IMG/VR virus record: IMGVR_UViG_3300042305_000092
Span: 1-24,974 of that record
Source of the DNA: a virus
Length of the DNA stretch: 24,974 nucleotides
Direction: 5' to 3' (one strand)
This document shows, in pieces, positions 5,277-24,171 of the stretch (its first letter is position 1; the number at the start of each line of letters is the position of its first letter). The notes under the pieces were generated by a model. The model saw nothing but the letters and a program-made list of their open reading frames with translations. It did not search any database and was not told the DNA's origin. A program made the translations under genes and the position numbers.

Positions 5277-5279
5277 TTG
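5265..5279 (+). promoter_or_regulatory. Ribosome binding site with TTG start of the giant gene
   Basis: GAGGGG (5265-5270) lies 6 bases before TTG (5277-5279), which directly follows the preceding TAA stop (5274-5276). The next in-frame ATG is about 80 bases further in and has no comparable ribosome binding site. TTG is therefore the likely start. A weak start codon on a 5.8-kb gene may set low output. Confidence 0.65.
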
Positions 5280-8200
5280 CCGTCTTTAGATTACTGGAAT
5301 CCTGAGAAGAATAAGAAACTTAAAACAACAAGTATCTTTAACAATCCTCAGGTGCAGATGGACCGTTTGATTGAAAGCGAGATGAGCACGCTCACTCCTG
5401 CCCAATATCAGACATTCTCATCTTTCATGTCGCGTTATCCTAATCAGAGCAAAGACTTTATCATGTCTGCTGTTCGTATGGGTTTCTCACCTGAAACTCC
5501 AGGCATCGGCAAACTTGCATCTATTGATGGACTTGCACAACTTAAGCAGGACTTGACAAATCAAAAAAATATCAAGTCTAGCGTTGATAAGGATAAGTCA
5601 CTACTAGGTGATATCCGTGATGGTCTATACTCTTCACTTAAGGGAACTACACGCGTTGGCTTTATTGCTACACGTTCTATCTATGATTCTCTTACTACAC
5701 TTGGTCGAGATGCTTATGCTATCTCTACAGGTAAGCGAGAGCCAGATTTTAATCAGGTTCTAAAGGATGTTGGACAAGGTATCTTTGGTGAATCTACCCA
5801 ACTAGGACAATTGGGTCGTGCATTCTTAGCAGATCCTACTAAGGTTGATACTGGTTCAGGTTTCTTCATCTCAGATGACTCAAAGGTTTCTAAAGCACAG
5901 GCTAAGGCTATGGCTGCTTATGGACAGATCAATGGTAAGTCCTTCACGCTAGGTCGTGGATTGATGACTACTGTTGGTGCAGATCCAAACAGCACTTCAT
6001 ACCGTGTAATGTCAGGTATTGTTGATGCAACACTCAACCTTGCTACTGACCCACTTACATACCTTGGACCTGGTGCACTTACAAAGATTGGCCGTGGCGG
6101 AAAAGAACTTAAGGCTGCTAAGGCTGCAGCACAACGCGAAGATGCACGTATTGCTGCTAACTTCAAAGAGCGTACAGGTTTAAGCAAGGATGAGAAGGCT
6201 CTTATTAAGGAGCGTACTGCTGGTGCTAAAGAAATTATTCGCCAAAGCGAAGTAAAGTACCTAAAGGACGAAGAAAAACTAGCCAAGGCAATTGAAGCAA
6301 GAAACGCAGCAGAGACTTCTAAGGCTCAAAAGCGTCTTACTGCTGGTACAAAGAACGAAGAGAACCTTGTTAGCGCAGGCGGTCAAGCCGTAAACGAACA
6401 AGCAGTTGCTGAGTTCGTCTTTGACGCTATGAATACAGGTAAGCAGGGCGATACAGTTGATCGACTCAGCAGACTATCTGCAGATTACTTCAACACGGGT
6501 GAAGGTTTTACCGCTGCCGTATTCTTTGATGAGATTCCAGAGGCAGGTAAACTAACATTTGCTACTCGTGGTAACGATGAATTTGTAGCACAATTGATTC
6601 CTGGCAAGAAAGCACCAGTTATTGTAGACATGGCTGCTGACTTTACACAGGTAACTGGTAAGGCTGCACAGAAGGAACTTAAGAACCGTACCGCTTTGCG
6701 TGATGTTCTTCTAGAAAAGTCTAACGACTTCTCACTTCCTGGTCCTACACGCGATGCGTTTAGTGCAATTGCTAGCGATATTGATGAGTCACTACGCTTG
6801 ATTGATAGCGTACTAGGTGGTTCACCTGAGTCACTAGGTGCATTTGTAGGTAAGATTGCTGCTGCAAAGGTACCACAGGCTACAGAAATTATTGTTGATG
6901 CTATTCAAGACATATACAAGGCTGACATCTTTACAAACATCCGTTCCATTTATGGTGAAATGGGTGGAGTAGCAGTCACTAATGGTGACCTTCTTGCTGC
7001 TCGTACAGTAAAGGCTAGCGAAGTACTTGCTGATTCTACAAAGACTGGCGCTGCTGCAGCACTTAACATCACTAAGTCGATGGAAAAGTCTGATGCAACT
7101 ATCCGTAAGTTACAGGCTGCTGTAGAAAAGTCACAAAAAGCACTAGAAAGCACCAAGACACGCCTAGGTGATATCACACAGTTGCGTACATTCGCACAAC
7201 GTGACCCTGAATTGGTAGCAAGACTAGTTAATGACCCTGATAATGCTGGTCTACAGAAGATTATTGACCTAGAACTCAAGATTGGCGAAGCACGCTTTGC
7301 TGATGAATGGACTCGTGCAGAGGTTGGACTAGTAGACACCTTCGGTGGTGGACTATCTGCTGATGGAACTAAGGCTATGAAGTATCTATTCGGCCGTAAG
7401 TTCCAAGCAATCGCAGAAGTTGTTGCTGGTGAGACTAATGCTATGCGTGTACACCGCCTATTTGGTCGTAAACTAGATGTAGACCTTACTCGTGAACTAG
7501 CAGATGCTACAACATCTGACCAAGTTATCTCAATCTTCTTGCGTCACCTTGCATCTCCTGAGACAGATCCTATTATTGCACGTTCTATGCTTATGCGTAC
7601 TGAACTTGCGCTAGGTACCAAGTCTCCTATCATCAAGGTTACAGATAAAATTAACATTGATGCAGTCAAGTGGGTAGAAAAGGCTGAAAAGGCATTTAGT
7701 AATATCTATGTACGTTCTACAGTGCTACCTTTAGGTGACCTAGATCGACTAGTTCCTGGTCTTAATGACTGGTTTACTACTGCTAAAGTACCTCAGAATG
7801 TAGTGGATGATATCCTTAATAAGGTCATCCGTGAGTCAGATTATACCTCTCGTTCTAAGATAATCATGGACGGAATGAAGGTTGCACAGAAGGCTCTTGT
7901 AGATTTTCATGGCAAGGGCGATGCTGAACTAGCAAAAGTCCTAGATGATGTACTTAAGGTTGCAGGTAAAGAACAAGCAATCGTTAAGCAGTACAACTAT
8001 GCTAAATTGGCTACTGGTACTACACCTACAATGATGCTACATGATGGCTCTTTGCTACCTATGACTGGTGCTAACTATGCTCACCAGTTCCTAGATGATG
8101 TTATTCAGTTGCGTGATACCAAGCCAATTGTACAGGCTATCAACAACTATGATAAGAACAGCGCTATATTTGGCAAGGCTCGTGCTGCGAAAGTAGCAGC

Positions 8201-11069
8201 AGATGAGATTGGTGACTACTGGCGTACTGCTCAGTTGGCATTCCGTATATCTTATACAATGCGTAACATTGGTGAAATGCAACTTCGTCAGTTCTTCTCA
8301 GGACACGACAGCATCTTTAAGAACCCTTTGAGTTATATTGCTATGGCAATGGCTAATCCTGAGGGTACTGCTATGCAGAAGTTGGCTGCTCGCTATGGTA
8401 AGTACCAGAACGATATCTTTGGCACTAACTTTAAGAACCCTCAAGATGATGCTTTGTTCACAGAAGCAGTCGATGAGTACCTACAGTTTGTAAAGCGTAG
8501 CATCTCTGCAGGAGATCCACGTACAGCATTCGTTGGTAAGGTCTATGAAGTTATTGACAACATGCACCCAGACTATTACAAGGGTCTATCTGTAAGCCTG
8601 ATGCGATTTGCATCTGATGATTTAATGCCTTTAGTAGCACGTGCTCGTACACCTGAACTACAGAGCGCTACTATCAAGTACCTTACAGAAGACAAAGCAG
8701 GATTAGAAATCCTACAAAAAATTCAAAAGGGTGCTCGTCTAAGCAAGGAAGAAGGACGCGGAGTCGTCTCCGACTTCGATAAGATTCTACTTAAGGATCC
8801 ATCAAAGCCTTTCTCCAAGGACAACATTAACCCTGAAAACCTTTTCAACTATCTGTTTGATGACCAATCAACTGCTAGTTACATGTATGCACTCAATGCC
8901 CTTGCAGGCAACGGTGGCAAAGCAGATAACATTCGTTCATTACTTGCTGGCGAAAGATTAATCTTTGGCTCAGGTGAAGACGCAATTGCTATGGCAATTC
9001 CTTCATACAAGCGTGTTAAGAACATGGATGAAATGGCTAGCCTAAATCTTCCGTTCAATAAGCAACTAGAGCGTTTCTTCCCACGTGAAGAGATGACTGG
9101 TGGTAGCGCATTGATGGCAACATCTAAGCGTTTTGCTGATGCTGATGAGAAGCAACTAACTAAGGCTGTCGACTGGTTCTTCGATCTTAACACTAAGATT
9201 GAGAACGTTGTCAACTTTGGACCTGAATATCGTATGGCATACTGGGACCACGTAGGTCGTTATGCAAACATGCTTGATACTCCAGACCTAAAGAAGGCAC
9301 TACAACTTGCTCGCAAGAATCTTGATGGAATCAAGGTTGGTGGAAAGCCTCTTAAGAAGCATCCAACAATTAAGTTCATTGAAAAGGAACTGTCTCGTCG
9401 TGGAGATAACTATGTACACGAAGCAGGCATTTCACTTAATCAGTTGAACTCTATGTCTGCTAAGAACGCATCTGTTTATACAAAGGGATTGTTCTACGAT
9501 GCATCTAAGCAACTACAGTCTGCACAGGCTCTACGCTTAGTATTCCCTTTCATTCAGGCACAGTTTAATACTATTAACAAGTGGGGCGAACTATTCGTTA
9601 AGAACCCTGTTAACTTCTACAAGGTGGGTCGTGCGTACAACGCACTAACCAAAGAAGGCACAAGCGCTATCTATGATATCACTGGTGTCGAGTATGATGA
9701 AGGACAAGGCTTTATCTACGAAGATGAGTTTGGCGAGAAGCGTTTCCGCTATCCAATCGCAGGTAGTTTCATTGGTGGTCTAGTTGGTGGTATGGTAGGC
9801 GTTGAAAACGGTGCTATGTCTAAACTAGAAATCACAGCACCTGTACAGGCTCTTAACCTTGCATTCGGTAACGTGAACCCTGGTGTTCCTGGATTCGGAC
9901 CTGCAGCACAGTTTGCTTATCAAGCAACTGGCAAGTCTGGAGCATTTGGACCTGTATGGGATACTATCCGTAACGTTGTAATGCCATTTGGTCAGACAGA
10001 AGATCCATTCGGTTCTTTGGCTCCAGCATGGTTGCGTAAGACTTTCTACTATGCAATTAATGACCAGAAGACTGTTGGACGTGGCGTTAAGGACTGGGCA
10101 TCATACCTAGCCGCTACTGGTGAGTATGGAGAGAATCCACTTGCTGATGACGTTGCACGTAATGACTTATTTAATGATGCTGCAGCGATGTCTCGTGGTG
10201 TTGGTATTCTACAGGCACTATTCCAGAGCATCGCACCTGCTACACCTTCTAGTGAAATCTTTACAAAGATTCCTACAAACAAGGGTAAGTTGGACTTTGC
10301 TAGCATGACAATGCTATACAGTGCATGGGACCAGATTAGCAAGAACCATCCTGGTGATTACATGAAGGCAGTAACTGAATTTTCTCAAGAGTTTGGTGAG
10401 AAGAACCTTCTAGCAATCATGGGTGGGTCATCTCGCTCTGTTACTGGTACTGCTGATGCATGGTCTTTCCTGAATAACAACCCTGATGTAGCAGATACAT
10501 ACGCTACAAAGAGTGGCGATATTATCCCATTCTTCTTCCCTGGTGGAGAGGCTGCTACAGCCTACTACTCATGGCAGAAGGCTACAGGACGCCGTGAGGT
10601 TCTTAGCCGTGAAGAACTTGAAGCAGCAGCAGAAGAACTTGTTTACAAAATGGCTAAGTCTCAGATCTCTGAGATACAGGCTGCTAGTGGATACTCTGAT
10701 GTCTGGTATGCAGGAGAAGTTAATGCTCTTAACCAGCGTTTCGGTGGGGCTGCACCTGCATCATTAGTTGTTGTTGGAACAGATCAAGAGCGTATTTCTA
10801 ATGTGGCTAAGGCTCTTAAAGATGAGCGTTTCCAGCAGTCACCTATTTATGATGAGACTCGACAGTTCTACACCGCTTATTCAGAGGCAGTAGAACTATT
10901 AAAGTCTACACGCATTACAGCAGAACCCGATCTAGGAAGTTCACACTGGTATGCATCTAGTTTACGTGCAAACCTGGAGATACTAGGAAACCAACTAGTA
11001 TTACAAAATCCAGCATTTGCACCAATGTATTACCGTGTATTCGCAGGAACTATGAAGGCAAAGGACTAA
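5277..11069 (+). CDS. Giant virion-associated protein, putative internal/DNA-ejection protein
   Basis: This 1930-residue protein takes up nearly a quarter of the window. It is mostly helical, with charged coiled-coil-like stretches near residues 275-355 and 602-650. A conserved-looking RISYTMRNIGEMQLRQF lies near residue 990. A PFIQAQFN...NPVNFY segment lies near 1425-1450. A glycine-zipper hydrophobic stretch (AGSFIGGLVGGMVGV, about 1493-1508) could insert into a membrane. Very large helical proteins next to the portal are typical of internal core or ejection proteins of short-tailed phages and of polyvalent proteins injected with the DNA. I see no HEXXH protease motif, lytic transglycosylase signature or RNA polymerase motif. 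The gene uses a TTG start. A tape-measure-like role is an alternative, but no tail-tube genes accompany it. Confidence 0.7.
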   Translation: MPSLDYWNPEKNKKLKTTSIFNNPQVQMDRLIESEMSTLTPAQYQTFSSFMSRYPNQSKDFIMSAVRMGFSPETPGIGKLASIDGLAQLKQDLTNQKNIKSSVDKDKSLLGDIRDGLYSSLKGTTRVGFIATRSIYDSLTTLGRDAYAISTGKREPDFNQVLKDVGQGIFGESTQLGQLGRAFLADPTKVDTGSGFFISDDSKVSKAQAKAMAAYGQINGKSFTLGRGLMTTVGADPNSTSYRVMSGIVDATLNLATDPLTYLGPGALTKIGRGGKELKAAKAAAQREDARIAANFKERTGLSKDEKALIKERTAGAKEIIRQSEVKYLKDEEKLAKAIEARNAAETSKAQKRLTAGTKNEENLVSAGGQAVNEQAVAEFVFDAMNTGKQGDTVDRLSRLSADYFNTGEGFTAAVFFDEIPEAGKLTFATRGNDEFVAQLIPGKKAPVIVDMAADFTQVTGKAAQKELKNRTALRDVLLEKSNDFSLPGPTRDAFSAIASDIDESLRLIDSVLGGSPESLGAFVGKIAAAKVPQATEIIVDAIQDIYKADIFTNIRSIYGEMGGVAVTNGDLLAARTVKASEVLADSTKTGAAAALNITKSMEKSDATIRKLQAAVEKSQKALESTKTRLGDITQLRTFAQRDPELVARLVNDPDNAGLQKIIDLELKIGEARFADEWTRAEVGLVDTFGGGLSADGTKAMKYLFGRKFQAIAEVVAGETNAMRVHRLFGRKLDVDLTRELADATTSDQVISIFLRHLASPETDPIIARSMLMRTELALGTKSPIIKVTDKINIDAVKWVEKAEKAFSNIYVRSTVLPLGDLDRLVPGLNDWFTTAKVPQNVVDDILNKVIRESDYTSRSKIIMDGMKVAQKALVDFHGKGDAELAKVLDDVLKVAGKEQAIVKQYNYAKLATGTTPTMMLHDGSLLPMTGANYAHQFLDDVIQLRDTKPIVQAINNYDKNSAIFGKARAAKVAADEIGDYWRTAQLAFRISYTMRNIGEMQLRQFFSGHDSIFKNPLSYIAMAMANPEGTAMQKLAARYGKYQNDIFGTNFKNPQDDALFTEAVDEYLQFVKRSISAGDPRTAFVGKVYEVIDNMHPDYYKGLSVSLMRFASDDLMPLVARARTPELQSATIKYLTEDKAGLEILQKIQKGARLSKEEGRGVVSDFDKILLKDPSKPFSKDNINPENLFNYLFDDQSTASYMYALNALAGNGGKADNIRSLLAGERLIFGSGEDAIAMAIPSYKRVKNMDEMASLNLPFNKQLERFFPREEMTGGSALMATSKRFADADEKQLTKAVDWFFDLNTKIENVVNFGPEYRMAYWDHVGRYANMLDTPDLKKALQLARKNLDGIKVGGKPLKKHPTIKFIEKELSRRGDNYVHEAGISLNQLNSMSAKNASVYTKGLFYDASKQLQSAQALRLVFPFIQAQFNTINKWGELFVKNPVNFYKVGRAYNALTKEGTSAIYDITGVEYDEGQGFIYEDEFGEKRFRYPIAGSFIGGLVGGMVGVENGAMSKLEITAPVQALNLAFGNVNPGVPGFGPAAQFAYQATGKSGAFGPVWDTIRNVVMPFGQTEDPFGSLAPAWLRKTFYYAINDQKTVGRGVKDWASYLAATGEYGENPLADDVARNDLFNDAAAMSRGVGILQALFQSIAPATPSSEIFTKIPTNKGKLDFASMTMLYSAWDQISKNHPGDYMKAVTEFSQEFGEKNLLAIMGGSSRSVTGTADAWSFLNNNPDVADTYATKSGDIIPFFFPGGEAATAYYSWQKATGRREVLSREELEAAAEELVYKMAKSQISEIQAASGYSDVWYAGEVNALNQRFGGAAPASLVVVGTDQERISNVAKALKDERFQQSPIYDETRQFYTAYSEAVELLKSTRITAEPDLGSSHWYASSLRANLEILGNQLVLQNPAFAPMYYRVFAGTMKAKD

Positions 11070-12296: not shown

Positions 12297-14318
12297 ATGG
12301 CACCTAAACTCCCTAAACTTCCTTTAGTTACAGCAATTGAAGCAGTTGTAAAATCAGTACCTAAGGCTATTGCTGCTAATAAGGCTGTTACAGAAGCAAA
12401 GGCAATTGAAACTCAGATTGCTAAGATTCTTGATAAGCCTAAGGTTACTGCTACAGATGTTAAGAAGGCTCAAGCGCTTCAAAAAGAAGCAACTCAAGTT
12501 CTTAAAGATGGTGGCGTTGGTAACAAGAAAGTTGTTGCTGATGTTACTACTGCAATCAAAGCGAAGGTTGCCGATGTAGCCGCTGCTGCGCCTAAAAAGG
12601 CTTTGCCTACTTCTGGAGCAGATGCTGCTAGAGCAGCCGCTGAGGCAAAGGCTGCTGCTACTGCTGCTAAGGCTACACCTGCTAAACCTACTACTACAGT
12701 TAAGACTCCAACTGCTGATGCAGCCAAGGCTGCTGCAGAGGCTAAAGCGGTTTCTGCCGCTAAGACTGCGGCTAAGGCTCCAGAACCAGTTGTTACTCCT
12801 AAGGCTACAACTCCTAAAGCCACAACTCCTAAGGCTACTACTCCTAAGGCTACTACAGCAAAGACTGCAGATGACGATGCAGCCGCTGCTGCTGCTGCAC
12901 GCAAAAAAGCATCTGATGATGAATTAGCAGCAAAATCCGCTGCACGTAAAGCAGAAGTTGCTGCAAAGGCTAAGGCTCGTCAAGATGCTACCGATGCTGC
13001 ACGAGCAGCAGCCAAGGCTGCAACTGCTGCAAAAGCAGCAGCGCGTGCTACAGCAGGTGGTGCAGTTGCTGGTGGAGTTGCTGGTGGTACTCTTGCAATT
13101 GATGGCGGAGATACTGGTGAAGGCGCTGGTGACGGTACTGGAGACGGTACTGGAGACGGCGCTGGCGATGGTACTGGTGGCGGTGGCGGTGGTGCTGGTG
13201 ACGGTGCTGGCGGTGGCGACGGCGGTGCTGGTGGCGGTGGAGGCGGAGACGGCTCTGGCGGTGGCGGAGGTGGCGGAGGCGGCGGCGGAGGCGGCGGCGG
13301 TGGAGGCGGTGGTGGTGGCGGAGACGACACACCAGATGATACTCCAGTAGAAGAACCTCCAGCAGAACCAACTGAAACTCCAGAACAGAAGTTTGATAAG
13401 ACTTGGTTAATCCTTCGTGCAAAGTTAATTGCTGCAGGACTTCCAGTCAAGACTGTTGATGATAGCGTGACTTACTTCCGTACAATCATCAAGGATGGAA
13501 CTTTCCAGGGAGATAACGAAATCAGCGATGTTGTTGATCAGTATCTATATCTTCCTACATACAAGAGCAAGTCTGGTACAGATATTGAGTCACCTTACTA
13601 TCGTGACTTTGGTTCATATAATGACAAACTTAAGGTTCCAAAGAAGCCAAGCGAACTAGTTCCTTTGGTTCTTGGATATCAGAAGTTGGTTGACAAGTAT
13701 CAGGTTTCTACAAAGTTTAGCGAAAAAGATTCTATCCAAAAGTATCTACAGAACGATGTATCTGTTGCCGAACTAGATGAGCGTATGAACTCTGCTCGTC
13801 TTCGTGGTATCGATGCTGACCCTAAGTATCTACAAACACTTAAGGATCTAGGATACATCTCAGGTGGTGCAGACTTAACAAGTTTCTTCTTGGCTCCTGA
13901 AATCGGAACTGTAGAACTTGAGTCTCGTCGTAAGACTGCAGCATTTGCAGTTGAAGCAGTTCGTCGTAGCAACGCTGGTATCAAACTTGATACAGCAACT
14001 GCTCAGGCTAACGCTGCTCGTCTATCAGCACTTGGATACTCAGAAGCACAGGTTACTAACCTTGCAGGTCAAGGATATGAAAACATTGCAGAACAGTTGA
14101 ATCCAACTACAGCCCTTTCAGGTATCTATGAAAAGACTGGTGAAAATGCTGATGTTCTTGCTCCTGTTATCCAGAAGGAACTAGAAGCAGAACAGTTCTT
14201 AGGAATGGCTTCACAGCGTCGTAAGAGACTATCTGAGCAGAACATTCGTGCCTTCCAAGGTGCGTCTGGTATGAGCCGTTATGGACTAATGGGCTCTACT
14301 GCTAACACAGCAATATAA
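12297..14318 (+). CDS. Virion protein with Ala/Lys repeats, poly-glycine hinge and C-terminal domain
   Basis: A 673-residue protein in three parts. Residues ~1-265 are Ala/Lys-rich helix-forming sequence with repeated ADAARAAAEAK-type motifs and four tandem PKATT units. Residues ~269-342 are a Gly/Asp linker ending in 22 consecutive glycines, followed by an acidic Pro/Glu/Thr segment. Residues ~365-673 are an ordinary, probably folded helical domain (from FDKTWLILRAKLIAAGLP). The basic N-terminal arm could hold DNA, with the glycine run as a flexible hinge. It closes the block that starts with the giant protein; TAGGA (12284-12288) precedes the ATG. The function is unknown. The low-complexity part is likely to vary in length between relatives. 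Confidence 0.7.
   Translation: MAPKLPKLPLVTAIEAVVKSVPKAIAANKAVTEAKAIETQIAKILDKPKVTATDVKKAQALQKEATQVLKDGGVGNKKVVADVTTAIKAKVADVAAAAPKKALPTSGADAARAAAEAKAAATAAKATPAKPTTTVKTPTADAAKAAAEAKAVSAAKTAAKAPEPVVTPKATTPKATTPKATTPKATTAKTADDDAAAAAAARKKASDDELAAKSAARKAEVAAKAKARQDATDAARAAAKAATAAKAAARATAGGAVAGGVAGGTLAIDGGDTGEGAGDGTGDGTGDGAGDGTGGGGGGAGDGAGGGDGGAGGGGGGDGSGGGGGGGGGGGGGGGGGGGGGGDDTPDDTPVEEPPAEPTETPEQKFDKTWLILRAKLIAAGLPVKTVDDSVTYFRTIIKDGTFQGDNEISDVVDQYLYLPTYKSKSGTDIESPYYRDFGSYNDKLKVPKKPSELVPLVLGYQKLVDKYQVSTKFSEKDSIQKYLQNDVSVAELDERMNSARLRGIDADPKYLQTLKDLGYISGGADLTSFFLAPEIGTVELESRRKTAAFAVEAVRRSNAGIKLDTATAQANAARLSALGYSEAQVTNLAGQGYENIAEQLNPTTALSGIYEKTGENADVLAPVIQKELEAEQFLGMASQRRKRLSEQNIRAFQGASGMSRYGLMGSTANTAI
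12798..12857 (+). repeat. Four tandem 15-base repeats (PKATT)
   Basis: Four in-frame 15-base units encode PKATT four times, differing only at third codon positions. Silent differences between units suggest the repeat is old or selected at protein level rather than a recent slip. Confidence 0.85.
13102..13322 (+). repeat. Glycine-codon tract
   Basis: A run of mostly GGN codons encodes a Gly/Asp-rich linker; 13257-13322 are 22 glycine codons without a break. GGC, GGT and GGA are mixed, so replication slippage is partly damped. The G-rich strand could form quadruplex-like structures. The opposite strand gives a spurious poly-proline frame. Confidence 0.85.
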
Positions 14319-14323
14319 GAATC

Positions 14324-14398
14324 CTTTGCGGATCTATCGGCCCCGCAAAGTGTACAAGACCGATAGTACAAGCCAATACAGATCCCCGTCTGTGATTG
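14324..14398 (+). ncRNA. Putative pseudoknot RNA element before the scaffold gene
   Basis: Stem 1 pairs CTTTGCGG (14324-14331) with CCGCAAAG (14343-14350), 8 bp. Its 11-base loop contains CTATCGG (14334-14340), fully complementary to CCGATAG (14360-14366) downstream, giving a 7-bp H-type pseudoknot. A third stem follows: CAATACAGA (14374-14382) with TCTGT/ATTG (14389-14398), 9 bp with one bulged G. The element starts 6 bases after a stop codon and ends about 38 bases before the scaffold ATG. No T-run follows, so it is not an intrinsic terminator. A pistol-type ribozyme also has a loop-to-junction pseudoknot, but the junction here is too short. It could be a riboswitch, an RNase site or a translational control element for the head genes. 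Confidence 0.55.
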
Positions 14399-14435
14399 AG
14401 GTGTGCGACAACTACTAATAAAGGGAGAACGTGCT

Positions 14436-14906
14436 ATGAGCACAGACCGCGACAACATCTGGGATGACGAAGAAGATAACGATTTTGAATCGTTTGACGC
14501 TGATACCGACCTAGTTAAGAAACTTCGTAAAGCCCTCAAGGCTGAGCAGAAGCGTAACAAGGAGTTAGAGACAACTATGGGTGATCTAACTAAGTCCCAA
14601 AAAGAGCGGATTTTGAAGGATGTACTTACATCCAGAGGTGTCAATCCTAAGATTGCACAATTCATTCCATCAGATATCGAAGCATCTGAAGATGCTATTG
14701 GAGCATGGCTAGATAACAATGGTGACGTATTTGGTTACACACCATCAGAAAAGCCTAGAGTTGCTCAACAAGATATTGCAGCGATGCAGCGTATGGATAG
14801 TGCACTCACAGGAGCAGAGACACCAGCCTCATCAGATGACCTGTTAAATCGCATTGCGAATGCAGGTTCAGAAGATGAGATTTTATCCATTCTCAGCGGT
14901 AACTAA
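14436..14906 (+). CDS. Capsid scaffolding protein, probable
   Basis: A 156-residue acidic, helical protein immediately upstream of the major capsid gene, the standard place for the scaffold that templates prohead assembly and then leaves. Residues 1-25 are strongly acidic (DDEEDNDFESFDAD). About 26-60 form a charged coiled-coil-like helix. A conserved-looking RGVNPKIAQFIPSDIEASED (67-86) and WLDNNGDVFG (91-100) follow, and the C-terminal ~25 residues form a helix that could contact the capsid. I chose the ATG at 14436, preceded by AAGGGAG (14421-14427), over an in-frame GTG at 14403 that has no such site and lies next to the RNA hairpin. Confidence 0.8.
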   Translation: MSTDRDNIWDDEEDNDFESFDADTDLVKKLRKALKAEQKRNKELETTMGDLTKSQKERILKDVLTSRGVNPKIAQFIPSDIEASEDAIGAWLDNNGDVFGYTPSEKPRVAQQDIAAMQRMDSALTGAETPASSDDLLNRIANAGSEDEILSILSGN

Positions 14907-14939
14907 ACCGCACACTAACCAGAAAGGGGATATCAGCAA

Positions 14940-16127
14940 ATGCCTGATGTCTTTTCAACCACAACCTCTGGGTTAGGTTCCAATCTTGTAACTTTGGCGT
15001 ACGACAAGTTGATCGAAATCAACTTGCGTTCAATGCCACAGTTCCGCGCTATCGCGGACAAGAAGGTCGGAAACCCAACTCACGACGGTTCTTCAATCCG
15101 TTTCCAGTTCCACAACGATATTGCTGACACCTCAATTGCAGGTGCAACACTCGCTGAAACTGTAGACCCAGATGCAGTAGCACTTCCAGCAACTACAACA
15201 CTAGATGTCACACAGACAGAACTAGGTCGCGTAGTACTTCCAACACGTAAGATGTCACTAATGAGTCTTGCTGATGTTGATCCATGGATTGCTAACGCAG
15301 TTGCATTCAACATGGCAACTACACTAGACAATGGTGTTGCTGCTATTCTTGATGCAGGTACAAATGTCATCCGTGAGGCTGGCGGAGCACTATCAACAAC
15401 TGCTGCTAAGACTTCAATCGTAGCATCAGACACATTTAAGGGACGCGACGTACGTTACGCTGTAACAAAGTTGCGCGCTGCTAATGTTGTTCCTCGTGGC
15501 GGAATGTATGTTTCATACATCCACCCAGAAGTTTCACATGATCTCCGTACAGAGACAGGTAACAACATCTGGCGTACACCACACGAGTACCAGAATGTTG
15601 GTCCACTACTTGCTGGTGAACTTGGCGCATGGGAAGGTGTCCGTTTCATCGAGACACCACGCATGACCAACTCAATCTCAGGTGGAGACCTAACAGCACT
15701 TGCTACTGCTCCTGCAGTAAGCGGTGTATCTGGTGAATTCACAATCGTAGTAGCAAATGCTGCTTTCGGTGGCCTACAAGAAGTTGGAGATAAGATCTCT
15801 GGTACTAACGTAGGTACAGGCGCTAAGATCACAGCAATCTCAGTTGGTACAACAAACACAACACTTACAGTGTCTGTTGCTAACTCAGGAACTGTTGGAA
15901 CTAATACTCTAACAGTAACACCTGCTGCTCGCGTTTACAACACTTACGTACTAGGACAGCAAGCACTTGCTGAAGCAGTATGGAAGGAACCAGGCATTGA
16001 GTTTGGTAACGTTGTAGACAAGTTGAACCGTTTCCGCCCAGTCGGCTGGCACGGTATCATCAACTGGTCAATCTACCGTCAAGAGGCGCTATACCGCATC
16101 GAGACTGCTTCATCAGTTCGCGCATAA
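14940..16127 (+). CDS. Major capsid protein, N4-gp56-like
   Basis: The main shell protein, 395 residues. The pattern resembles the N4-gp56 branch of HK97-fold capsids: an N-terminal arm, then FRAIADKKVGNPTHDGSSIR (35-54), a GRVVLPTRK strand (96-104), YIHPEVSHDLR (193-203), ELGAWEGVRFIETPR (227-241) and a closing GWHGIINWSIYRQEALYRIE. Residues ~245-330 are Gly/Thr/Val-rich and strand-forming, and look like an inserted beta domain, perhaps exposed on the shell. It directly follows the scaffold and is followed by a long hairpin. AAAGGGGA (14923-14930) is the ribosome binding site. The family assignment is by recognition, not by a search. Confidence 0.88.
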   Translation: MPDVFSTTTSGLGSNLVTLAYDKLIEINLRSMPQFRAIADKKVGNPTHDGSSIRFQFHNDIADTSIAGATLAETVDPDAVALPATTTLDVTQTELGRVVLPTRKMSLMSLADVDPWIANAVAFNMATTLDNGVAAILDAGTNVIREAGGALSTTAAKTSIVASDTFKGRDVRYAVTKLRAANVVPRGGMYVSYIHPEVSHDLRTETGNNIWRTPHEYQNVGPLLAGELGAWEGVRFIETPRMTNSISGGDLTALATAPAVSGVSGEFTIVVANAAFGGLQEVGDKISGTNVGTGAKITAISVGTTNTTLTVSVANSGTVGTNTLTVTPAARVYNTYVLGQQALAEAVWKEPGIEFGNVVDKLNRFRPVGWHGIINWSIYRQEALYRIETASSVRA

Positions 16128-16176
16128 TCTAAGTATTTAGATGGGTGGGGCAGGGGGAAACTCCTGCTCTATCCAT
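16128..16176 (+). promoter_or_regulatory. Long hairpin behind the capsid gene
   Basis: After the capsid stop comes a 5-bp hairpin TCTAA/TTAGA (16128-16141). It overlaps by one base a 16-bp stem that pairs 16141-16156 with 16161-16176 around a GAAA tetraloop, with four G-U pairs and no mismatch. No T-run follows; AAAACGG comes next. It is therefore more likely an RNA-stabilising or processing structure that separates abundant capsid mRNA from the downstream genes than a classic terminator. Confidence 0.55.
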
Positions 16177-16196
16177 AAAACGGCTTAGGAGGCTAT

Positions 16197-16448
16197 ATGG
16201 CATACAGATTCACAACACCTACAATAAGCGAAGGCCCTGCAGGTGAAGGTCGTTTATTCAGCCGTTACAGGCTTGTAAGAGGCATCACAGTTCTCAAGAT
16301 AGATGGCGAATACTTTGAACTTCGCTATCCCTCATCTGAAGAGGTAGAGGCTGCTCAAGAGGCATACATGGGCGGATATTCCTATGAAGTCAGTCCAGGG
16401 GAGAAGGCAGACCTTGAGGCTGCAGGATACACAGTGGAGACGATATGA
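16197..16448 (+). CDS. Small conserved head-region protein
   Basis: An 83-residue protein that begins MAYRFTTPTISEGPAGEGRL, followed by a strand-rich segment (RLVRGITVLKIDGEYFELRYP) and an acidic C-terminal half. I recall similar short proteins beside capsid genes of actinobacterial and aquatic phages but know no function. TAGGAGG (16186-16192) is a near-perfect ribosome binding site, the strongest in the window, so expression may be high. It overlaps the next gene by ATGA. A head decoration or head-completion role is possible by position only. Confidence 0.75.
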   Translation: MAYRFTTPTISEGPAGEGRLFSRYRLVRGITVLKIDGEYFELRYPSSEEVEAAQEAYMGGYSYEVSPGEKADLEAAGYTVETI

Positions 16449-23058: not shown

Positions 23059-23405
23059 TGACTACACAAAAATATTTATTTCATAATATCTACGGCGATG
23101 CTCAAACTTTAATTGACACAAAGCCAAATGATGTCACTGCAGTTCCATTTGGTTGGGACCCACATACAGAAACAATTAGAAACTCAATCTTAAATCTTCT
23201 TGGAGTTTCTATTGCTGGGCTTCCAGCAGTAGTTGCTTGGCGAGAAGAATACATAACAACATCACCAGACCCACTTGACCCACCAAAGACAATGCCCGCT
23301 GGGTGGTTTGTACTACATCTTAATGATGTGCCACAATCAGACTGGAACTGGGGTTATATTCAATCAGTCATTGACGGATGGGGTGACGAGTTAGATTACT
23401 TGTAA
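23058..23405 (+). CDS. Small hypothetical protein, possible fibre assembly factor
   Basis: A 115-residue acidic, Trp-rich protein starting at a TAATG junction directly behind the Gly-rich fibre gene. The C-terminal half has PAGWFVLHLNDVPQSDWNWG and ends WGDELDYL. Fibre-specific chaperones often occupy this position, but the sequence shows no family I can name. Its end overlaps the convergent minus-strand gene by 10 bases, and a terminator-like hairpin starts at its stop codon. Confidence 0.6.
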   Translation: MTTQKYLFHNIYGDAQTLIDTKPNDVTAVPFGWDPHTETIRNSILNLLGVSIAGLPAVVAWREEYITTSPDPLDPPKTMPAGWFVLHLNDVPQSDWNWGYIQSVIDGWGDELDYL

Positions 23406-24115
23406 GACTTCTTTGACCAGAAGTTTTTAATGTAGTGGTTGATCAAAGTTGAGTTAAAGGTTTTATCCTCAAGCAACTTATGCTCACCTTCTGCATAGAA
23501 ATCAAACTCCGCTTTCCAGTCAGTTCTTTTGAAAGGAATAAGTTGCACTAAAGGTGTTCCTTTTTCTATAACTCCTTCAAAGCCTTCTTTTAACCACATT
23601 GGAAACAATGGTTCAAGGCTTGCCTTGTCACTATCAAGCACTGCTTCAATAGCCCTAAATGGTAAATTTTTATGACCTACTGGTGGTAGTGCTAAAACAG
23701 AATAACCTTTTGGTGTATTGGGAATCCACTTGTTCATAAACTTAAATACTGAGTTAGTGTATCCAGGTGGATTTTCAATATGCTGAGAGTTTTCTCCGTG
23801 TTGTTCAAATACTTCAAGGCTTGAACGCCAAGTTAATCGTGGACCCATAGGAGTTTGCTTAACTTGAACATCAGACCATAATGGAATTATGTACCCAGAA
23901 GTAAGGGCATCTAACATTGGCACACATTTTTTAAATGTTGCATTAGAGATACGGTTCTCAAGAATAAACTTTTTACCATCTGGATTATCAGGAGAAACCT
24001 GATAAGGAGTCATCTCCTTGTGCCACTTAGGTAATGCCTGAGAAGCAGGAAATGGACGGTCACATAAATCGTATGTGTACTTGTCTTTAGCAATAAATGT
24101 AATTTTTTGAGTCAT
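23396..24115 (-). CDS. Reversed gene of unknown function in the fibre cassette (moron-like)
   Basis: A 239-residue soluble protein on the minus strand. I start it at 24115, where GAAAGG lies 6 bases upstream; a longer frame from 24160 lacks a good site. Patterned segments include FPASQALPKWHKEMTPY, FKKCVPMLDALTSGYIIPLW, TPKGYSVLALPP and EGVIEKGTPLVQLIPFKRTD. I recall this family from cyanophages and other aquatic phages with no known function. No signal peptide, membrane span or catalytic motif is evident. Being the only minus-strand gene and flanked by fibre genes, it looks like an independently transcribed moron. Its 3' end overlaps the preceding + gene by 10 bases. Confidence 0.82.
   Translation of the reverse strand: MTQKITFIAKDKYTYDLCDRPFPASQALPKWHKEMTPYQVSPDNPDGKKFILENRISNATFKKCVPMLDALTSGYIIPLWSDVQVKQTPMGPRLTWRSSLEVFEQHGENSQHIENPPGYTNSVFKFMNKWIPNTPKGYSVLALPPVGHKNLPFRAIEAVLDSDKASLEPLFPMWLKEGFEGVIEKGTPLVQLIPFKRTDWKAEFDFYAEGEHKLLEDKTFNSTLINHYIKNFWSKKSYK
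23404..23428 (+). terminator. Intrinsic terminator-like hairpin (+ strand)
   Basis: A stem AAGACTTCT (23404-23412) pairs with AGAAGTTTT (23419-23427) around TTGACC, 9 bp with one G-U pair, and the 3' side merges into a run of five T (23424-23428). It starts at the stop codon of the + strand gene and lies inside the last codons of the minus-strand gene. The stem is AT-rich, so termination may be partial. Confidence 0.5.
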
Positions 24116-24171
24116 CTTATGCCTTTCGTAGGTATAAAAAGTGTACCATATATCAATCAATAAGGAGCAAT
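24116..24171. promoter_or_regulatory. Divergent intergenic region, presumed promoters
   Basis: These 56 bases separate two outward-reading genes, so at least the minus-strand gene needs a promoter here or a little beyond. The stretch is AT-rich. On the + strand TATAAA (24133-24138) could be a -10, with TTGAGT (24107-24112) as a poor -35 at 20 bases. No convincing -35/-10 pair exists for the minus strand. Both ribosome binding sites are here: AAGGAG (24162-24167) for + and GAAAGG (24127-24122) for -. Confidence 0.35.

Follow-up and report, generated by a model that had tools for sequence, protein, structure and literature searches.

The window, that is, the whole stretch of DNA analysed here, is a virus record of 24,974 bases in which the genes are ordered as large terminase, portal, a 1,930-residue protein, virion proteins, scaffold, major capsid, small proteins and fibres. 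The scaffold gene (14436–14906, + strand, 156 aa) matches the PHROG head scaffolding protein family phrog_648 (4.8e-7), and the next gene of the operon (14940–16127, + strand) encodes a major capsid protein of the N4-gp56 family (TIGR04387, 8.6e-23; phrog_1357, 2.2e-58). The upstream gene (12297–14318) encodes a protein with a long low-complexity middle, Gly-rich and Lys-Ala-rich (tandem repeats at 12794–13323), the conserved C-terminal part of which corresponds to phrog_8424. No PHROG family matches the 1,930-aa virion-region protein (5277–11069), and a Pfam search with each of its halves gave nothing above cut-off. The stop codon of the upstream gene (TAA, 14316–14318) and the scaffold ATG (14436) are separated by a gap of 117 bp, and it is in this otherwise empty sequence, as an earlier note based on the DNA letters correctly described it, that the RNA element studied here is found.

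The element (14324–14407, + strand, as are its parts) consists of an H-type pseudoknot, made of an 8-bp stem (P1) and a loop helix of 5–7 bp, followed by an extended P2/P3 hairpin whose tip is C-rich; 3′ of this arm come an unpaired stretch, the Shine-Dalgarno (SD) sequence of the scaffold gene and its ATG. P1 is formed by CTTTGCGG (14324–14331) and CCGCAAAG (14343–14350), which pair exactly as the earlier note had it, and the P1 loop holds CTATCGG (14334–14340), complementary to CCGATAG (14360–14366), 9 bases past the stem. A stem of 8 exact pairs together with a 7-base loop pairing, likewise exact, is found at a single place in the window when both strands are scanned and in 0 of 20,000 dinucleotide shuffles, which bears out the claim that it is unlikely to arise by chance. 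The minimum free energy of the element is only mildly unusual (z −1.9), as expected since the folding program cannot score a pseudoknot. A promoter and terminator scan of positions 13900–16300, which showed no excess over shuffles, gave nothing near the element, which the earlier note had said is not a terminator. That the RNA at 14324–14407 is real is confirmed, and the case for it is stronger than was first claimed.

Comparison with relatives refines the fold in two places. Of the 7-base loop pairing, the conserved core is of 5 bp (14336–14340 with 14360–14364), and G14366, first counted in this pairing, is rather assigned to P2, a helix which had been missed and in which GTACA (14366–14370) pairs with TGTGC (14402–14406). 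The bulged hairpin reported before, CAAU-ACAGA (from 14374) with UCUGU-G-AUUG (to 14398), is present and forms the top of the larger P2/P3 arm. In this arm, an AG bulge (14371–14372) and a GA bulge (14398–14399) flank a CC (14373–14374), invariant in the freshwater alignment, that pairs with GG (14400–14401); above it stands the P3 hairpin (14375–14397), defined by folding and alignment, with CCCC (14384–14387) in its apical loop. The apical C run is nearly invariant, being altered in L134 and L137 and in soil forms that have CCCUA. The linker GUGUANNAGA (14351–14359), which is L3 of the H-type pseudoknot, is conserved in the freshwater and soil alignments, and the unpaired spacer ACAACUACUAAU (14408–14419), conserved in the freshwater group, lies ahead of the SD AGGGAGA (14422–14428). 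On the other side, the A/U-rich 5′ flank of AGAAUC type (14319–14323) is nearly invariant among freshwater relatives and may be a processing site.

In the consensus pseudoknot, P1 is of 8 bp, often with one bulged A in the relatives, the loop measures about 11 nt and the loop helix is of 5 bp; the remaining parts are some 2 nt (CC or CA) and a linker, about 10 nt long, with a conserved GUA..AG. The consensus arm has a 5-bp P2, the AG bulge, the CC/GG pairs, a G(A/U) bulge and P3 with its C-rich tip, and in freshwater phages a ACAACUACUAA-like unpaired spacer separates it from the SD.

Relatives were fetched by their scaffold and capsid proteins, and one gene-independent scan used the DNA pattern of the element. 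In the fetched loci, the element stands before the scaffold gene wherever the contig covers that region. The nhmmer survey returned 320 copies of the freshwater type, at most one per locus and none elsewhere; 313 of the 313 testable copies directly precede the scaffold ORF, the other 7 being too truncated to tell. At the nucleotide level the phage-isolate collection showed no similarity to the element, and homologues there were reached via the capsid protein. The closest cultured phage records by this protein are OX376640 and OX376641, labelled LanE43-AprE7, and the homologues of the element include a phage isolated on Ca. Planktophila; phages E7 and F5 were isolated on Ca. Planktophila LanE-43 (PMC10202952). 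The next closest are Streptomyces phages of the Beephvirinae, podoviruses such as Abafar (PMC11536984). Streptomyces and soil phages have a diverged form of the element ahead of the scaffold gene. A covariance model built from freshwater sequences only detects soil copies upstream of the scaffold gene with E values of 8e-15, 4e-13 and down to about 1e-3 (several further soil copies score above 0.01 only), which indicates that the two groups are homologous. A diverged freshwater clade (L046–L067) keeps the same pseudoknot plan and is matched by the model with E values of 3e-6 and 3e-8; its members have an additional small hairpin (ACCC..GGGT) ahead of the SD.

The earlier note had asked for covariation of P1 and the pseudoknot helix upstream of the scaffold genes of relatives, and both clearly show it in two separate alignments. 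In the first, of 48 non-redundant freshwater-type sequences, the covariation score is 0.432 against 0.184 in shuffles, none of 500 shuffles scored as high, and controls in which the pairing was slid gave at most 0.113. In the second, of 32 soil and Streptomyces sequences, 96.3% of the cells are paired and the score is 0.503 against 0.198 in shuffles (again 0/500 as high). Seven of the eight P1 pairs have changed on both sides in the freshwater set, and the P1 sequences of the soil/Streptomyces set are wholly different. The pseudoknot helix is 93.8% paired in the freshwater set, with exchanges between UA and CG (26/22) and between GC and AU (27/21) that are unbroken at those positions. The loop helices of the relatives read AUCGG/CCGAU, ACCAG/CUGGU, ACUAG/CUAG, GCUGG/CCAGC, GUCAG/CUGAC and others; those of the soil/Streptomyces set read GCUGG/CCAGC, GCCAG/CUGGC, GUCAG/CUGAC, GUCGG/CCGAC, ACCGG/CCGGU, UCCGG/CCGGA and ACUGG/CCAGU. 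P2 covaries in both alignments, e.g., CG/AU/GC/UA at columns 55–94 and GC/AU/UA at columns 56–93, with zero unpaired cells in the freshwater set. RNAalifold, which cannot draw a pseudoknot, recovers P1 and P2 unaided. This shows that P1, the pseudoknot helix and P2 have each been maintained through many compensatory changes and that the fold is under selection: across hundreds of relatives from lakes and soils, evolution has preserved the shape of this RNA and not its letters.

The G-U and A-C mismatches tell which strand matters. On the + strand, 33 G-U are counted against 2 A-C in the well-aligned pairs (8 against 2 after removal of one G-U-rich pair), which indicates that the + strand acts as RNA, rather than as a DNA signal. 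A DNA-level signal, such as a promoter hairpin or a packaging site, had been worth considering given that the capsid genes are N4-like and that N4 uses DNA hairpin promoters; it is grouped here with the idea that the pseudoknot stimulates readthrough or frameshifting of the upstream gene, since in the window it begins only about 6 nt past the upstream stop codon. Both are largely refuted, the former by the asymmetry just described. For the latter, the distance and the frame to the stop codon vary among relatives and up to 21 tRNA genes are inserted between the upstream gene and the element in soil phages, so that a coding or readthrough role is rejected. The comparisons thus show a pseudoknotted RNA of the + strand, under selection and attached to the scaffold ribosome-binding site in all testable relatives.

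The soil phages give further information about the 5′ edge of the element. In 43 of 56 soil loci, the gap between the upstream gene and the scaffold gene is occupied by 1 to 21 tRNA genes. In each of these 43, the 3′ end of the last tRNA falls at the element, 110–129 nt before the scaffold ATG, and in none is there a tRNA between the element and the scaffold gene. The species of this last tRNA varies (Val, Pro, Met, Ile, Asn, Asp, Phe, Tyr). P1 could be placed by script in 40 of the 43 loci, and in 30 of these its first base directly follows the tRNA end. Of the 43 last tRNAs, 40 carry an encoded CC or CCA, compared to about 16% of the tRNAs elsewhere in the arrays. Since the tRNAs are always upstream of, and never inside, the segment formed by the element and the scaffold gene, these two form a unit, the element belonging to the 5′ leader of the scaffold mRNA. 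The 5′ edge of the element looks like a processing boundary; the abutment of tRNA 3′ ends on P1 makes processing at this edge more likely, even if the zero spacer may in part simply reflect the tight packing of the arrays, in which 83 of 364 inter-tRNA spacers are of zero length.

In L263 (positions 823–2836, Streptomyces phage Kumquat), L364, L387, L401 and other soil loci, the interval from the upstream virion gene to the element is exactly occupied by arrays of 12–21 tRNAs. In arrays of this type there is often zero or one base between tRNAs, and the last one is mostly tRNA-Val, with an encoded CC or CCA that abuts the pseudoknot. In another soil phage array (L374, 657–918), ARAGORN calls a tmRNA overlapping tRNA genes, which is probably spurious.

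A cut at the 5′ edge could be made by a host nuclease as well as by a ribozyme. The element might be no more than a structure that processing nucleases recognise or are blocked by, which would give the head mRNA a protected 5′ end with no regulation of translation; RNase P (attracted by a tRNA-like stack of the 8 bp of P1 on the 5 bp of the loop helix), RNase Z and RNase E/J are candidate nucleases. The 43/43 junctions with different tRNA species and the zero spacer in 30 of the 40 placed loci fit this idea, and T4 offers a precedent: RNase E cuts its gene 32 mRNA at −71, slightly upstream of a pseudoknot at −67 (PMC3014915). It leaves the conserved P2/P3 arm, the C-rich tip and the unpaired spacer up to the SD unexplained, and the arrays are tightly packed anyway (83/364), so we regard it as possible and on the unlikely side.

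Another proposal, an improbable one, is that the element is a new self-cleaving ribozyme whose cut immediately 5′ of P1 would generate the 5′ end of the scaffold mRNA in all the phages and, in those from soil, also mature the 3′ end of the tRNA. The zero-spacer CCA|P1 junctions speak for it, a candidate HDV-like cleavage site directly 5′ of P1 would fit in the soil loci, and the theta (HDV-like) ribozymes of gut phages are likewise structured RNAs placed directly 3′ of phage tRNAs (PMC10879173). Unlike them, the element precedes the scaffold gene also where there is no tRNA, as in the freshwater phages, in which the first P1 pair is C-G. It also lacks the nested double pseudoknot of the HDV type: where that fold has its P3 hairpin, between the 5′ strand of P2 and the 3′ strand of P1, the window and the aligned relatives have about 2 nt. 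Pistol (RF02679) resembles the element in having a hairpin loop that pairs with a downstream strand and then another hairpin. The strand order differs, the pseudoknot strand lying after the 5′ strand of P2 in the Pistol fold and before both P2 strands in the element, and cmscan gave no match to RF02679 up to E 10. More generally, Rfam 15 has no match at the gathering threshold, ribozyme or riboswitch, over the element in the window or in diverse relatives, in agreement with the earlier note; a permissive search returned a chance match (E 8.2) elsewhere in the window stretch only, and none over the element in soil loci.

At the other end of the element, the apical C run is complementary to the G run of the SD (UCCC/GGGA in the window). 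Among 58 soil elements, 31 combine a CCCUA loop with a UAGGAG SD and 27 combine CCCC with GGGAG, with zero mixed cases. On the capsid tree, 4 joint changes of loop and SD are needed, 2 of them on strongly supported branches, and there are single cases that seem to be compensated: CCUAA/UUAGG in L379, and a CCUC loop with a GAGAG SD (CUC/GAG) in L137 and L134, which share the same form. In freshwater phages, the base flanking the C run makes a Watson-Crick pair in 19 of 61 cases compared to 13.7 expected (p 0.003, by a statistic that ignores kinship). A general permutation test of loop–SD complementarity gave no significant signal (p 0.33 over all soil forms and 0.15 within the GGG class), and many freshwater forms have a match of 3 bp only (CCC/GGG). 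Recombination that moves the loop and the SD together as a block could give the same pattern as coevolution, and the C-rich loop might just as well bind a protein or help ribosomes to bind. A helix between the apical loop and the SD is therefore plausible, and the evidence for it is suggestive only. Two other pairings were rejected: that of the 5′ AAUCCC with the SD is not conserved in elements of the L121/L134 type (GAAUUCC), and that of UAGUA in the pseudoknot strand with UACUA in the unpaired spacer is lost in L044 and L174.

The earlier note had proposed a cis-acting RNA for the head genes. The comparisons bear out a cis-acting, covarying RNA upstream of the scaffold gene, and from its position and anatomy we infer that it controls expression. 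The explanation that we favour, with a confidence somewhat above even, is that the element is a cis-acting structured leader that controls the translation of the scaffold, or scaffold and capsid, message. A cut at the 5′ edge, at tRNA 3′ ends in soil phages and perhaps in the A/U-rich AGAAU flank in the window phage, would make the pseudoknot the 5′-terminal structure of the scaffold message. The C-rich tip may then, more tentatively, pair with the SD, and the leader would switch the access of ribosomes. A binder, most economically the scaffold or the capsid protein itself, would set the state of the leader and hence the amount of scaffold made.

The closest analogue in mechanism is the operator of gene 32 in T4, T2 and RB69. 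It too is an H-type pseudoknot in the leader of a phage message; it lies at or near a processed 5′ end, some 65–110 nt before the start codon, and is followed by an unpaired stretch and then the SD (PMC3014915). In T4, the distance from the pseudoknot to the start is about 67 nt, RNase E cleaves at −71 and the control is an autogenous repression (PMC3014915). The element differs in that it precedes a scaffold gene (313/313) and not that of a ssDNA-binding protein, in its extra P2/P3 hairpin and C-rich tip, and in being found in many metagenomic phages of Actinobacteria; no shared sequence is expected. Operators of the gene 32 type are bound at the pseudoknot by the product of their own gene, which blocks the SD. 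In phage P22, the scaffolding protein (gene 8) regulates its own amount post-transcriptionally. The likeness of the element to this system would be one of function only, and we know of no pseudoknot involved in it.

Two further readings may be set beside translational control of the scaffold message by a structured leader. The size and the compactness of the element are like those of small pseudoknotted aptamers, which might suggest a metabolite riboswitch. It is strictly tied to one structural gene of phages, with no association to metabolic genes and no Rfam riboswitch match, and we consider this highly improbable. The most elaborate reading, which is unlikely to hold in full, is that of a new class of phage RNA: the pseudoknot, whether itself a ribozyme or a tRNA-like substrate of RNase P, would undergo cleavage at its own 5′ edge; a single cut would thereby mature the last tRNA of the array and create the 5′ end of the scaffold mRNA, on which the pseudoknot would then act as a scaffold-sensed translational switch closed by the loop–SD pairing.

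No description of this RNA was found in the open literature (most subscription journals lying outside the search). Leader pseudoknots are of a known kind; this RNA family, the gene it precedes and its tRNA junction are new with respect to the sources searched. A 2010 review considered the T4 gene 32 pseudoknot as possibly the only viral pseudoknot in translational autoregulation (PMC3014915); the element could be a second one, on a structural gene. The assembly of phage heads requires set proportions of scaffold and capsid proteins, and the mechanism that sets them is known in few phages. The carriers of the element are phages of two very abundant actinobacterial groups. Some of them are in culture, namely E7 and F5 on Ca. 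Planktophila (PMC10202952) and Streptomyces phages such as Abafar, so the element can be tested at the bench at once. The new covariance model is available for the annotation of phage genomes.

Two other features of the window may be mentioned. A GC-rich inverted repeat (GCAGGGGGAAACTCCTGC) is present between the capsid gene and the next gene (16127–16196), and a very similar one is found at the same place in relatives (e.g., L076 and L085); it could be a terminator-like or mRNA 3′-end structure. Further downstream, a 254-aa ORF is encoded on the − strand (23396–24160) among fibre-like genes which are otherwise all on the + strand.
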